The position numbers were made by a program, and so were the translations under genes. Below the pieces are notes generated by a model, which was not told the origin of the DNA, made no database searches, and was given only the letters and a program-made list of their open reading frames with translations. 64,000 nt of DNA, from positions 1-64,000 of the forward strand of contig JADQBQ010000014.1 of NCBI GenBank assembly GCA_016278505.1, given 5' to 3'. Positions 25,728-29,706 of this stretch are shown here, piece by piece (the first letter of the stretch is position 1; each line of letters starts with the position of its first letter). This DNA is from Clostridiales bacterium. GTDB taxonomy: Bacteria > Bacillota > Desulfotomaculia > Desulfotomaculales > VENG01.

Positions 25728-25860
25728 TGTAATATTTTCCTCCAACCTTTGTCCTCTTTACCTTATTCATATTATAGTATATATTTTACAGTATCGAGAA
25801 TTACGGGAAATTATTTTTTAAATTTTATGGTAACTTTTTTCTACTTTAAAGGTAGCTATT

Positions 25861-25887
25861 CCCCCTAATTTATATCTTTTTACCGAA
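25861..25887 (+). promoter_or_regulatory. Candidate SigI-dependent promoter of sigI-rsgI
   Basis: CCCCC (25861-25865) and CGAA (25884-25887) are 18 bp apart, 120 bp before sigI. SigI promoters are described as C-rich at -35 with CGAA at -10, and sigI is autoregulated in other Firmicutes. An inverted repeat CCCTAAT/ATTAGGG (25863-25869, 25894-25900) brackets the site. The match is by eye and the spacing should be compared with known SigI promoters. Confidence 0.45.
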
Positions 25888-26006: not shown

Positions 26007-26714
26007 ATGAAAACCGAACAAGACAATACCCTTTTTCTTATCAAACGCCTGCAGCAGGGCGATGAGATGGCCCGGGAAACACTTATCACCAATTATAAGG
26101 GTTATATTATTAAATTAGCAAAAAGCTACAGCCAGGAAAAATGTAATGTTCTCAGCACTGACGCTTATAGCATAGCCTTAATTGCTTTCAACGAAGCGGC
26201 AGATAAATATAACCCCGATAAAGGAACCCATTTCCCCTCCTTTGCCAGTCAGGTAATTAAAAGACGATTGATAGACATGGTGAGATGTAACGTTAAATAT
26301 AAGCCGGAAATAAATAGCCAGGACATTCCTGACAGCCCGTCCGAGGATACTAACAATTCTGAGCTAAGAGAAGACTTGGCCGAGGATATTGAGTGGTTTG
26401 AAAAGGCATTACAGAAATTCAATATCTCCCTGGAGGATCTGGTGCAGGAAACACCGAAACACAAAGACACACGCTGTAAAGCGATAGCTATGGCCAAGCA
26501 CGTGGTAAATGACCCGGTGCTGCTGGCTCGTTTCAACGAACGCAGGTCCTTACCTTTTAAAAGCCTATTATTAAAGTTTCGCTGTAACCCTAAAACCATT
26601 CAACGTCACCGAAAATATATAATAGCAGTATGTATTGCTCTAAAAGGCTCCAGCATTTATTTGAAAGACTACATCCTCGGTGTGGTGAAAGGGTGCGATG
26701 ACCATGGCTCATAA
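26007..26714 (+). CDS. sigI: RNA polymerase sigma factor SigI
   Basis: The 235-residue sigma-70-like factor has region 2 (ETLITNYKGYIIKLAKSY, then ALIAFNEAADKYNPDKGTHF and FASQVIKRRLIDMVR) and the SigI C-terminal domain with DPVLLARFNERRSLPFKSLL and CNPKTIQRHRKYIIAVCIAL. SigI responds to heat in Bacillus and to extracellular polysaccharides in cellulolytic clostridia. The start ATG has AGGAAGTGAGG upstream. The end overlaps rsgI by 17 bp, the usual arrangement in which the partner anti-sigma factor is made together with it. Confidence 0.92.
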   Translation: MKTEQDNTLFLIKRLQQGDEMARETLITNYKGYIIKLAKSYSQEKCNVLSTDAYSIALIAFNEAADKYNPDKGTHFPSFASQVIKRRLIDMVRCNVKYKPEINSQDIPDSPSEDTNNSELREDLAEDIEWFEKALQKFNISLEDLVQETPKHKDTRCKAIAMAKHVVNDPVLLARFNERRSLPFKSLLLKFRCNPKTIQRHRKYIIAVCIALKGSSIYLKDYILGVVKGCDDHGS

Positions 26715-28035
26715 GGGTACGGTTTTTAAAGTTAAACCACAAAGCCTGATATTGATGACAGGAGATTTTGAATTTAAAGAAATTAAAAAACGGGCATCGG
26801 TAAAAATCGGCCAGGAAGTACTCTTCGACGACCACGACATAATAAGCCCGCATCAACATAACAGGAGATGGTTAGCGTTAGCCGCTTCGCTGTTAATCTT
26901 TGTACTTTTTTCCAGTGCATTACTGCAAGAAATTCTGGTACCGGACGTTTATGCCTATGTGGGGATGGATATAAACCCCAGTTTAGAACTGGCCCTGGAT
27001 AAAAAACTGGAGGTTATACAGGCTGAGGCAAGAAACGAAGATGCCCAAAAAGTTTTACAGGGCCTTTCCCTGCAAGGCCTTAACCTGAAGGCGGCGGTAG
27101 ATACCATCTTGGAATCATGCTCCAACCAGGGATATATAAACAATTCTACTTCCCATATCGTGATCAGTACAACAATAAATGCCACCAGTGTGGAGAATAA
27201 TGTAAAACCGGCCAATTTGGAAGCACAGGTACTATCATACACTAAGGGACAACTGGAGAAGAAACAGGCAGAAGTTAATGTTTACGTGGTAAAAGTAAAT
27301 GAAGAGGAAAGAGAAGAAGCCTTAAATAAAGGCGTGTCCGCAGGTAAATATCACCTCTGGAATAAAAGCAGGGAAAACGGCGTTGAACTTGACCTGGAAA
27401 AAATTAATGCGCAGAGCATGGGCAGTATTGTACAAAATAATGACCGGGTGCAGGACGTTCTCACAAAAAATGCCACTGTAAAATGGAAAAAGGCCGGCCA
27501 TAAACAAAAGGGTATTAATGATACTCCCCAAACACCTCCGGGCATTGAAAAGAAAGGTGATTCCAAAGCTTCACCCGGTACAGATGTAAAAGGGCAAGCA
27601 AAGAGCCACGGCAAAGCTATGCGGGTAAACCCCAACGCAAATAATTATGCAAAACAAGGCCAAAATAACGGCAGTACCGGTAAAAATGTAAAATCAGGAA
27701 AAAACATGCCTGCATTCAAAAACAATAAAAACGGCTGGGGCACAGAGTCACCCGGCCGTTTGAAAGACCCCGCGGGAAAATCGCCCCAAGGTTCTAACAA
27801 GGACAAAAAGAACGGTAACAGTTCAGCAAACAATAATAAGAAATCAAAAGACAATGCTAAAAACCAGGGCAAACCACAGAGAGGTCAAACATATCCCTCC
27901 GACAAAACAAAAGGCAGCCCTCAAAATAACTTTAAGGATTCGCCCAAAGATACCAGTAAAGATGTCAAAAATAATGATGGTAAAACTATCCAAGGTGTTA
28001 AACATAACTGGTTTCGCTTGGGCCTATACAAATAG
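26698..28035 (+). CDS. rsgI: Anti-sigma-I factor RsgI with disordered extracellular tail
   Basis: The 445-residue membrane protein has an N-terminal RsgI cytoplasmic domain (about 5-50: KGTVFKVKPQSLILMTGDFE) that should hold SigI, a single helix (58-79), then the RsgI extracellular domain with YAYVGMDINPSLELALDKK; its Asn93-Pro94 fits the self-cleavage site described for RsgI proteins. From about residue 265 the tail is low complexity, rich in Lys, Asn, Gly, Pro and Ser, with no carbohydrate-binding module. The start could be 26698 or the ATG six bases later. It is translationally coupled to sigI. Confidence 0.88.
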   Translation: MTMAHKGTVFKVKPQSLILMTGDFEFKEIKKRASVKIGQEVLFDDHDIISPHQHNRRWLALAASLLIFVLFSSALLQEILVPDVYAYVGMDINPSLELALDKKLEVIQAEARNEDAQKVLQGLSLQGLNLKAAVDTILESCSNQGYINNSTSHIVISTTINATSVENNVKPANLEAQVLSYTKGQLEKKQAEVNVYVVKVNEEEREEALNKGVSAGKYHLWNKSRENGVELDLEKINAQSMGSIVQNNDRVQDVLTKNATVKWKKAGHKQKGINDTPQTPPGIEKKGDSKASPGTDVKGQAKSHGKAMRVNPNANNYAKQGQNNGSTGKNVKSGKNMPAFKNNKNGWGTESPGRLKDPAGKSPQGSNKDKKNGNSSANNNKKSKDNAKNQGKPQRGQTYPSDKTKGSPQNNFKDSPKDTSKDVKNNDGKTIQGVKHNWFRLGLYK

Positions 28036-28069
28036 GACCACGGTCTTAATTATACCAACATTACCCCAG

Positions 28070-28126
28070 AAATCACCCCCCGTTACCGAATGTTAATATA
28101 AAGGTAAAAACGGGGGGTGATTTTTT
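28070..28126 (+). terminator. Rho-independent terminator of sigI-rsgI
   Basis: AATCACCCCCCGTT (28071-28084) pairs fully with AACGGGGGGTGATT (28109-28122), followed by T-runs. Confidence 0.9.
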
Positions 28127-28187
28127 CAGTTGTTGTCCCGTCACGAAATTTTTTAAGATACTAATTTTGTAAATGAGAGGTGTAACT

Positions 28188-29636
28188 ATGCAATTCAGAA
28201 AGCTTTTATATTTGTTTACTGCTTTTTGCTTTATGGTGGGAGGTTTATTTTTAATACCACAAACTGCAATGGCTAAAGGACACCCTGTATTCGGCGAAAA
28301 TTGGATGCCACCTGGGCATGCCAAAAAAGCACAAGCTATTGAAGTAGCCGAAGAAGTTGAAGAAGAGAATGAAAATGACCCTGAAGAGACACAAAACGAA
28401 AGTTCGTATGTAAAGCAAGAAGGTCCGGCCTGGGCCAGGGAACAACATCCCAGCGTCAAAGGTTTAATGAATGCTTACGATAATCTCTGCCGCAACGGGG
28501 CACCGGATTGGCAGAGGGCACAATTCCGGGCTAAGATAGAGGCTCGGGGAGGAATCTTTGAAGACATCAATAAAATTGAAGAAAAGGAATATACCATTAC
28601 TGTAGACGGCGATTCCGGCATTGAATTGATGTTTGACCAATCCAAGGATATCACCTTTTTAGTGGAAGATAACGAGGCAGAGGCAGCGGAATTGCCCCAA
28701 GGCTATGAAATAGAGCTTCAGGTCAGCGATGATGACAGCGTTTTGACCAGTCCGGAAGAAGAGAGTACTGTGGGCATGAGTGACACTGAGGGCGTCACTG
28801 AAGTAGTTACCGTCACCGCTGACGAAGAAAACGAAGGCACCGCAACCATCACGGTTACATTGTACAATGATGAAGAAGAGATAGTTGATAGCGAAACTAT
28901 TGAAGTCACCGTGGGAGAGGCTGTGGCAACCACCGGCAACCTCACCTCTGATGACAGTGACCTCACCTTTACGTCAGATGAAAATGAGGGAATTGCCTAC
29001 GCAACCATGGCCGGTGAGAGAATCGATTTTGATTACCAAATAGTAGACCAAAAGGACGATCCAATTGACGTAGCCGAAGACACCAATATTATTTGGACCG
29101 TGAAAAACACCGGTGAGAATGACATTACTGTTTACGGGGTTGAAGAATCCGGGGTTACCGTAGGCCCCAATGAAGAAAAAGATTTCACAGAAGAAATTTC
29201 CGACGACGATGACGTCGATGACAGCGATACTATTTCAATTCAAGCATATAACGTTACAGAAGCGGAAATAACCTCCCAGATTGAAGATAACGAAGACAGC
29301 CTTGAAAGCACCGGCATATTATTCTATGACGAAGATAATATGCCGGTCTCCGACAGCGACGTAACAATAGAAGGTACTGTTGAAGCCTTTGCAACCGATA
29401 AAGATAACGAAGACGGCATACAGCTCTTAATCTACGATGGCGATGAGTACTTCCACATCACGGCCACATTCGAAACCGTACTCATTGAAAACGATGATGA
29501 TAACATCCCTGATATTGGGGACGAAGCTGAACTGAAAGAATACCTTGAATACGATATGGAAGTAAACGTTGAACTGGATGAATACGAAGAAGATGACTCT
29601 TCGGACGAAGACATTATTAAACTATACCTGAACTAA
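28188..29636 (+). CDS. Secreted acidic protein of unknown function
   Basis: I choose ATG 28188 (GAGGTG upstream). The 482 residues start with a signal peptide (KLLYLFTAFCFMVGGLFLIP, cleavage likely after QTAMA), then a short segment HPVFGENWMPPGHAKKAQ. The mature protein is very rich in Asp and Glu, with beta-rich segments resembling bacterial Ig-like repeats (about 125-360), and a C-terminal domain (VTIEGTVEAFATDKDN to LEYDMEVNVELDEY) that loosely resembles the small-barrel DUF5666 fold. Two segments, GPAWAREQHPSVKGLMNAYD and CRNGAPDWQRAQFRAKIEAR, lie near residues 80-125. It follows sigI-rsgI after a terminator, so it may be a separately controlled member of the same response. No function is claimed. 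Confidence 0.75.
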   Translation: MQFRKLLYLFTAFCFMVGGLFLIPQTAMAKGHPVFGENWMPPGHAKKAQAIEVAEEVEEENENDPEETQNESSYVKQEGPAWAREQHPSVKGLMNAYDNLCRNGAPDWQRAQFRAKIEARGGIFEDINKIEEKEYTITVDGDSGIELMFDQSKDITFLVEDNEAEAAELPQGYEIELQVSDDDSVLTSPEEESTVGMSDTEGVTEVVTVTADEENEGTATITVTLYNDEEEIVDSETIEVTVGEAVATTGNLTSDDSDLTFTSDENEGIAYATMAGERIDFDYQIVDQKDDPIDVAEDTNIIWTVKNTGENDITVYGVEESGVTVGPNEEKDFTEEISDDDDVDDSDTISIQAYNVTEAEITSQIEDNEDSLESTGILFYDEDNMPVSDSDVTIEGTVEAFATDKDNEDGIQLLIYDGDEYFHITATFETVLIENDDDNIPDIGDEAELKEYLEYDMEVNVELDEYEEDDSSDEDIIKLYLN

Positions 29637-29661: not shown

Positions 29662-29706
29662 AATAACTCAAGTTTTTGGTGCCTGTCACCAAAAACTTGA
29701 GTTATT
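29662..29706. terminator. Perfect 20-bp hairpin, bidirectional terminator
   Basis: AATAACTCAAGTTTTTGGTG (29662-29681) pairs exactly with its complement at 29687-29706 around a CCTGT loop. It lies 26 bp after the stop of the secreted protein. Confidence 0.75.

Follow-up and report, generated by a model that had tools for sequence, protein, structure and literature searches.

A sigI–rsgI locus with a long disordered RsgI tail and an adjoining candidate sigma-I target gene in a Clostridiales bacterium

The sigI–rsgI locus and the domains of RsgI

The window analyzed here, a stretch of 64,000 nucleotides from a Clostridiales bacterium, contains a sigI–rsgI pair followed by a gene for a secreted surface protein. 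As read from the nucleotide sequence, the locus combines the domain order of an RsgI, an NP site, a predicted disordered tail, two promoter-like sites, a terminator-like hairpin and a conserved neighbor, arranged as follows.

25860..25887, + strand: sigma-I-type promoter-like site before sigI, TCCCCC..(A-tract-like)..CGAA, PWM rank 1
26007..26714, + strand: sigI, sigma-I factor, 235 aa, directly upstream of rsgI with a 17-nt overlap
26698..28035, + strand: rsgI, anti-sigma-I factor, 445 aa (Pfam RsgI_N and RsgI_M; relatives of RsgI2, RsgI9 and B. subtilis RsgI in the PDB)
26848..26937, + strand: membrane helix, RsgI residues 51–80 (AlphaFold2 helix; hydrophobic core by inspection)
26968..26982, + strand: DINPS, RsgI residues 91–95, predicted self-cleavage site Asn93-Pro94 of the SEAL (RsgI_M) domain
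27502..28032, + strand: predicted disordered tail, RsgI residues 269–445, rich in K, N, G and S (from pLDDT and composition)
27535..27555, + strand: PPGIEKK, RsgI tail residues 280–286
28063..28090, + strand: sigma-I-type promoter-like site before ORF 28173, ACCCCAGAAA..CGAA, PWM rank 2
28068..28125, + strand: terminator-like hairpin of sigI–rsgI, ending in a T run
28173..29636, + strand: secreted, very acidic surface protein, 487 aa (signal-peptide-like start; later beta domains in a low-confidence model)
28308..28328, + strand: PPGHAKK in the surface protein
29662..29706, + strand: terminator-like inverted repeat after the surface-protein gene

The first-pass annotation had recognized the frame at 26698–28035 as an RsgI with an NP motif, and the domain searches bear this out. 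RsgI_N occupies residues 5–44 (Pfam PF12791, 42.5 bits against a cut-off of 25) and RsgI_M/SEAL residues 85–223 (PF23750, E 4.4e-34), with a single predicted membrane helix between them. The conserved DINPS site lies where it had been placed, and its Asn93 and Pro94 are invariant in 23 aligned RsgIs, an alignment that excludes the own-genome paralogue L003, which is without an NP site. Three solved chains of RsgI2 and RsgI9 (8heq_B, 8hdj_B and 8u9o_B) start at the residue that phmmer aligns with Pro94, as expected for self-cut proteins. Within the membrane helix, an L-A-A (XAA) step is found at residues 61–63, of which A62 and A63 are nearly invariant among 11 aligned sequences; a passage of PMC12203970 assigns a role to the XAA step of the RsgI membrane helix. 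From its domains and NP site, RsgI is predicted to cleave itself and to inhibit sigma-I.

The AlphaFold2 model of RsgI, built from 23 aligned proteins, reaches block-mean pLDDT values of 81–97 over residues 1–260, except for 68 at residues 161–170. Its best match in the PDB is B. subtilis RsgI (8t9n_A, E 1.5e-11), behind which C. thermocellum RsgI2 and others rank. For the product of sigI, the matches to NCBIfam NF006176 (E 4.1e-63) and TIGR02895 (E 1.3e-52) fall short of the curated cut-offs, and that to Pfam Sigma70_r2 exceeds its own. In 61 of 62 RsgI loci compared, an ORF as large as sigI lies upstream of rsgI, L071 being the exception, and a plasmid search with the sigI–rsgI locus gave no match.

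The disordered tail of RsgI and its relatives

Beyond the confidently modeled part, pLDDT is 68 at residues 261–270 and below 50, with no helix or strand, over residues 269–276, 283–424 and 429–445. The tail at residues 269–445 is 177 residues long, with 37 K+R and 13 D+E, in agreement with the approximately 180 charged low-complexity residues previously described after the NP site. The absence of a sugar-binding module, also claimed at first reading, holds as well: Pfam and NCBIfam searches with residues 245–445 alone returned no family match at E up to 1, and no carbohydrate-binding or hydrolase domain, the feature by which a cellulosome-type RsgI would be recognized, was found in the tail. 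A binding domain detectable by profile search, which the first-pass annotation had named as one of two results that would overturn its reading, was thus sought and not found with these two libraries. That the tail nevertheless hides a small unrecognized carbohydrate-binding module is highly improbable; nothing beyond the habit of C. thermocellum RsgIs speaks for it, and both the missing family match and the pLDDT below 50 over most of residues 269–445 disfavor it.

Relatives were collected from 60 genomes, including the own genome, with the first 245 residues of RsgI as a query, which returned 78 RsgI matches in 53 genomes with open frames of 274–511 aa. The comparison set comprises 62 distinct RsgI ORFs, the other 16 matches being left out. 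All 62 carry a C-terminal extension, which runs 54–242 aa past the conserved part (median 156) and is poor in hydrophobic residues (median fraction 0.22). Tail length and charge include everything past the conserved part, which in this RsgI ends at residue 239, approximately 30 residues before the predicted disorder, so that the shortest tails may be mostly folded or hold little disorder. The extensions measure 49–502 residues in 80 named loci, of which 13 hold an RsgI already among the 62. The comparison of homologue tails proposed in the first reading shows that close relatives do possess a C-terminal tail; its absence there, the other result that would have overturned that reading, did not occur, and what had been presented as an oddity is the rule.

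Tail sequence is a different matter. BLASTP with the tail produced two matches at E <0.01, L006 (68 columns, E 7e-4) and L005 (25 columns, E 0.005), both beginning at the second residue of the tail, and past this first stretch the sequence is hardly conserved. Such weak conservation, together with the wide range of lengths, would suit a tail that is a mere spacer or an unselected appendage, the signal being read instead by a protease or by the SEAL domain. We consider this unlikely, since every RsgI of the set has an extension, although the shortest may hold little disorder, and since the disordered regions are reportedly required for wall homeostasis in B. subtilis, as the title of Brunet et al. 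2022 has it.

Net tail charge spans −26 to +27 among the 62 RsgIs; the tail studied here, at +27 past residue 239, is the most basic of all, the tail of its nearest relative carries +22, and those of two own-genome paralogues carry −21 and −15. Basic charge is thus not conserved. The proposal that the tail uses its positive charge to sense polyanions, such as teichoic acids or other anionic polymers, can draw on the charge of this tail and of its nearest relative's, and on the strongly acidic surface protein encoded next door (net −109 without its first 25 residues). Against it stand the spread of charge among relatives and the lack of correlation between the charges of tail and neighbor (Spearman rho 0.18, p 0.48, n = 17 loci), and we regard it as quite improbable. 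Electrostatic pairing of a basic tail with an acidic neighbor was rejected for the same lack of correlation. Of the signals suggested in the first-pass annotation, a cell-wall or mechanical one is retained as the leading idea, whereas basic charge as the sensing principle is not supported. RsgIs without a recognizable C-terminal binding element were already noted in 2012 in C. cellulolyticum and C. cellulovorans, according to a passage of PMC3413522. With its long, predicted disordered extracytoplasmic tail and no sugar-binding domain found, the protein has the features of a B. subtilis-type RsgI.

Several other RsgIs and their surroundings are recorded here in their own right. The second RsgI of the genome (L056 5774–6886, on contig C48) has a Met/Asn/Asp-rich acidic tail of net charge −21, and its relative L040 1904–2989 (genome G017) has a Met-rich tail of net −5; genes for a DUF326 Cys-rich protein and for a two-component system lie within approximately 5 kb, and this could be a metal-sensing RsgI. 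The third (L057 9714–10862, on C3) is without an NP site, carrying DMTSS, and its tail has a C-SPDQHA-TG motif in common with L071 2292–3455. Further along L057 is a gene for an AcrB-type permease; the gene that follows L071 resembles, by eye, one for a metal P-type ATPase, and FeoB is nearby. In five clostridial loci (L168, L169, L170, L182 and L183), the next gene listed after rsgI encodes a second protein, lipoprotein-like and with an RsgI_M-like start, also judged by eye.

The adjoining surface-protein gene, its promoter-like site and the shared motif

ORF 28173 encodes PPGHAKK at residue 46 and HPSVKGL at residue 92. It shares its N-terminal part with relatives carrying PF07833, but its C-terminal half differs, as does that of the nearest relative's copy. 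Pfam detected no PF07833 in ORF 28173 at E up to 1, and the domain was likewise not found in the nearest relative's copy (genome G001). Its structure model has a mean pLDDT of 50.5 and was for this reason not used for fold search. A PDB profile search with the neighbor family gave engineered repeat proteins as best matches (E 4e-4 and weaker), and copper amine oxidases only at E 0.25.

Searches with ORF 28173 match 9 of the 60 genomes, the own one included, and the homologue is the gene directly 3' of rsgI in G001, G002, G007, G040 and G058. Across the 62 loci, the first gene after rsgI encodes PF07833 or the N-terminal part of ORF 28173 in 13 and an SLH protein in 3, as sorted by Pfam for most and by profiles built from these proteins for the rest. 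The arrangement also occurs in the named loci, including Pelotomaculum terephthalicicum (L137), Ca. Desulfopertinax cowenii, Desulforudis MAGs and Peptococcaceae MAGs, which points to a Peptococcaceae-like clostridium as the probable source of the window. PF07833 proteins are present in the surfaceome of Desulfotomaculum reducens, as reported in a passage of PMC4137172. They are so common in the genomes compared (3 to 34 matches per genome) that adjacency alone is weak; promoter and clade make the case stronger. Among the publications listed (10 of 215 for the genus names), none was seen to describe a surface gene coupled to sigI–rsgI in these clostridia.

Sigma-I promoters comprise a divergent specificity region, an A-tract and CGAA, according to a passage of PMC6056542. 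A PWM was built from the sites of 19 other genomes, with the own genome excluded, and all positions on both strands of the window were ranked. The site before sigI scores 19.7 bits, and its CGAA ends 119 nt before the gene; the 19 sites behind the PWM are the loose forms of the sigma-I promoter that precede sigI in 19 of 58 relatives' loci. The site before ORF 28173 scores 14.9 bits, which lies within the range of the top scores of six random Markov 64-kb sequences (13.7–18.3 bits, one strand), so that its weight rests on position and relatives. A promoter call by sequence rarity was rejected in any case: genome-wide, the strict promoter pattern occurs at 10 sites against 23 for a reversed control, and without enrichment most single sites are meaningless, position and relatives alone counting. 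Among the 10 sites are those of sigI and its paralogue on C48, of ORF 28173 and of a gene on C13 for a secreted CAP-domain protein. This last gene (L084 655–1434, − strand), whose product has a Pro/Glu/Gln-rich linker, lies 66 nt after a good sigma-I-type site and is a further candidate target.

The 28063 site overlaps the terminator-like hairpin of sigI–rsgI. The region 28060–28145 folds at −30.8 kcal/mol (z −4.3), and none of 200 shuffles is as stable; the absence of this hairpin from a simple terminator scan is probably due to that scan's 3–8 loop limit. Given the overlap, sigI–rsgI transcripts should stop where the promoter of the next gene starts. We rejected a common operon of the surface gene with sigI–rsgI, as the strong hairpin and T run stand between them. 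The overlap of promoter-like site and hairpin (28063–28130) could couple read-through and promoter use.

For the 62 loci, a cut of 10 bits was chosen after the scores were seen. The best site after rsgI reaches it in 11 of 13 loci in which the next gene is PF07833-type or homologous, versus 2 of 48 in which it is not (Mann-Whitney p 1.7e-6); L014, with only 44 nt downstream, was left out. Addition of 64 further named loci gives 11 of 17 surface-gene loci versus 2 of 108 others (Fisher 4.7e-10, related loci not being independent). For this set, 13 of the 80 named loci were omitted, an identical RsgI being already among the 62, and L145, L179 and L196 were too short. In an antisense control, 1.7% of 3200 190-nt windows from named loci reach 10 bits, and none of the 60 further named loci without a surface gene does.

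The positives and the exceptions both call for qualification. One of the 11 positives, L011, is doubtful, as its site overlaps the ribosome-binding site and start of the gene. The four surface-gene loci contributed by the named set all fall below 10 bits (L138, −4.7; L139, −3.5; L160, 7.5; L167, 0.7). The surface gene may be simply co-transcribed with rsgI in L010, L015 and L138, where the gap is 15–23 nt, but the gaps are wide in L139 and L160 and 74 nt in L167, for which co-transcription is no excuse. Gaps below 30 nt without a convincing own promoter characterize L010, L015, L028, L036 and L038, and L011, with its doubtful site, has a gap of 28 nt. Within the own subclade, sigI is often preceded by only a weak site; in L007, L008, L013 and L034 this site scores lower than that of the surface gene, which may be the main sigma-I target there. 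When the 62 RsgI cores were placed in a maximum-likelihood tree, 12 of the 13 surface-gene cases fell together in a 14-member group, whose branch is weakly supported (87/50). Of its two remaining members, L014 sits on a contig that stops after rsgI and L009 has a different gene; the thirteenth case (L049) is placed elsewhere.

The RsgI tail and the surface protein also share a PPGxxKK motif. Its general form, PG..[KR][KR], occurs in 15 of the 62 tails, compared with 2.06 on average and 7 at most when the tails were shuffled 200 times, and in 11 of the 80 named-locus tails, a set overlapping the 62. It is found in 6 of 7 tails whose neighbor has the shared N-terminal part versus 9 of 55 others (Fisher 5e-4, uncorrected for ancestry). 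A PPGxxKK DNA pattern that requires lysine codons without mismatch, and hence misses arginine variants, matches the own genome 11 times. RsgI and ORF 28173 match in frame and are the only evident secreted proteins; another match lies in a 207-residue frame of a different kind and the remaining eight in frames of at most 61 residues. Forward-strand ORFs longer than 150 aa in the 80 named loci were scanned for P[PA]G.[AGE]KK within the first 90 residues, which yielded five ORFs, all directly after rsgI and one of them an SLH protein (L176). Ten relatives scanned for the motif had been chosen by an existing motif in the RsgI tail or neighbor, or by a related neighbor. Among the papers searched, none contains any of six spellings of PPGxAKK-like strings as a named motif.

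These counts are what would favor PPGxxKK as the active part of the tail, such that tail and sigma-I-induced surface protein bind the same envelope partner and the surface protein competes with its own sensor, or shields it, in a feedback. This reading is fairly unlikely: the motif is absent from 47 of the 62 tails and from 69 of the 80 named-locus tails (13 of which repeat the 62), and the ancestry in the Fisher test, the preselection of the ten relatives and the bias of the DNA pattern towards lysine all count against it. That the RsgI tail and the surface protein have a common partner is our hypothesis, and its extension, a three-gene homeostatic circuit in a subclade of Peptococcaceae-like Clostridia in which the surface protein occupies the PPGxxKK partner and silences its own sensor, appears rather unlikely.

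A candidate envelope-stress circuit and its known counterparts

The RsgI/SigI pair of B. subtilis is said to be a cell-wall stress system, in work attributed to Brunet et al. 2022 and Brogan et al. 2023. We favor, with moderate confidence, the reading that the locus encodes a B. subtilis-type RsgI within an envelope-stress sigma-I circuit that controls a dedicated surface protein. The cytoplasmic N-domain of RsgI would hold sigma-I, the SEAL domain would cut itself at Asn93-Pro94 with both halves remaining together, and the disordered tail would extend into the cell wall. If the envelope were damaged, thin or strained, the tail would be pulled or exposed and the halves would part; an intramembrane protease would then cut RsgI near L-A-A, and the fragment would be degraded, setting sigma-I free. 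Sigma-I would transcribe its own operon from the promoter at 25860 and 28173–29636 from the separate promoter at 28063, and the secreted surface protein would reinforce or decorate the envelope.

The cleavage cascade and wall sensing are modeled on relatives. Passages of PMC12203970 and PMC7478892 describe, for C. thermocellum and B. subtilis, a self-cut followed by a RasP/RseP cut and then ClpXP, and passages of PMC13059805 and PMC10128001, citing Brunet et al. 2022, carry the proposal that a disordered region of B. subtilis RsgI reaches into the wall and there senses defects in the peptidoglycan. By homology, the tail studied here may read the state of the wall. ORF 28173 is a predicted sigma-I target on the basis of its promoter-like site, its position and its relatives; that the surface protein is a main target and strengthens the envelope is a step we infer for this locus alone. 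The likely output adjoins its sensor, has a motif in common with it and possesses its own sigma-I-type promoter, so that a single small locus would allow sensor, signal and target to be examined jointly. Furthermore, the comparison moves away from the sensing of sugars by cellulolytic clostridia and towards the maintenance of the envelope in Peptococcaceae-like ones.

Among known systems, surface proteins with PF07833 (copper amine oxidase N-terminal) or SLH domains are represented by the neighbor's relatives or by genes in its place, whereas the window's neighbor and the nearest relative's copy are without PF07833 and have different C-terminal halves. RsgI1–RsgI9 of C. thermocellum, which act in cellulosome regulation, possess the same signaling core and the same promoter logic (specificity region, A-tract and CGWA, as given in passages of PMC6056542 and PMC10575876), but the tail here differs in having no carbohydrate-binding or hydrolase domain. 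RsgI8 is closer, as it has no distinct binding domain, but is without the self-cleavage motif that the RsgI here has, according to a passage of PMC12203970. B. subtilis RsgI/SigI has the same N-domain, membrane helix, self-cutting SEAL domain and disordered tail (the tail as described in passages of PMC13059805 and PMC10128001), and its RsgI (8t9n) is the closest solved fold. The sigma-I targets in B. subtilis include mreBH and lytE among others, according to a passage of PMC7478892, whereas the candidate target here is an adjoining, dedicated surface-protein gene. An RsgI with a disordered tail is itself already known; the adjoining gene is what is new at this locus.
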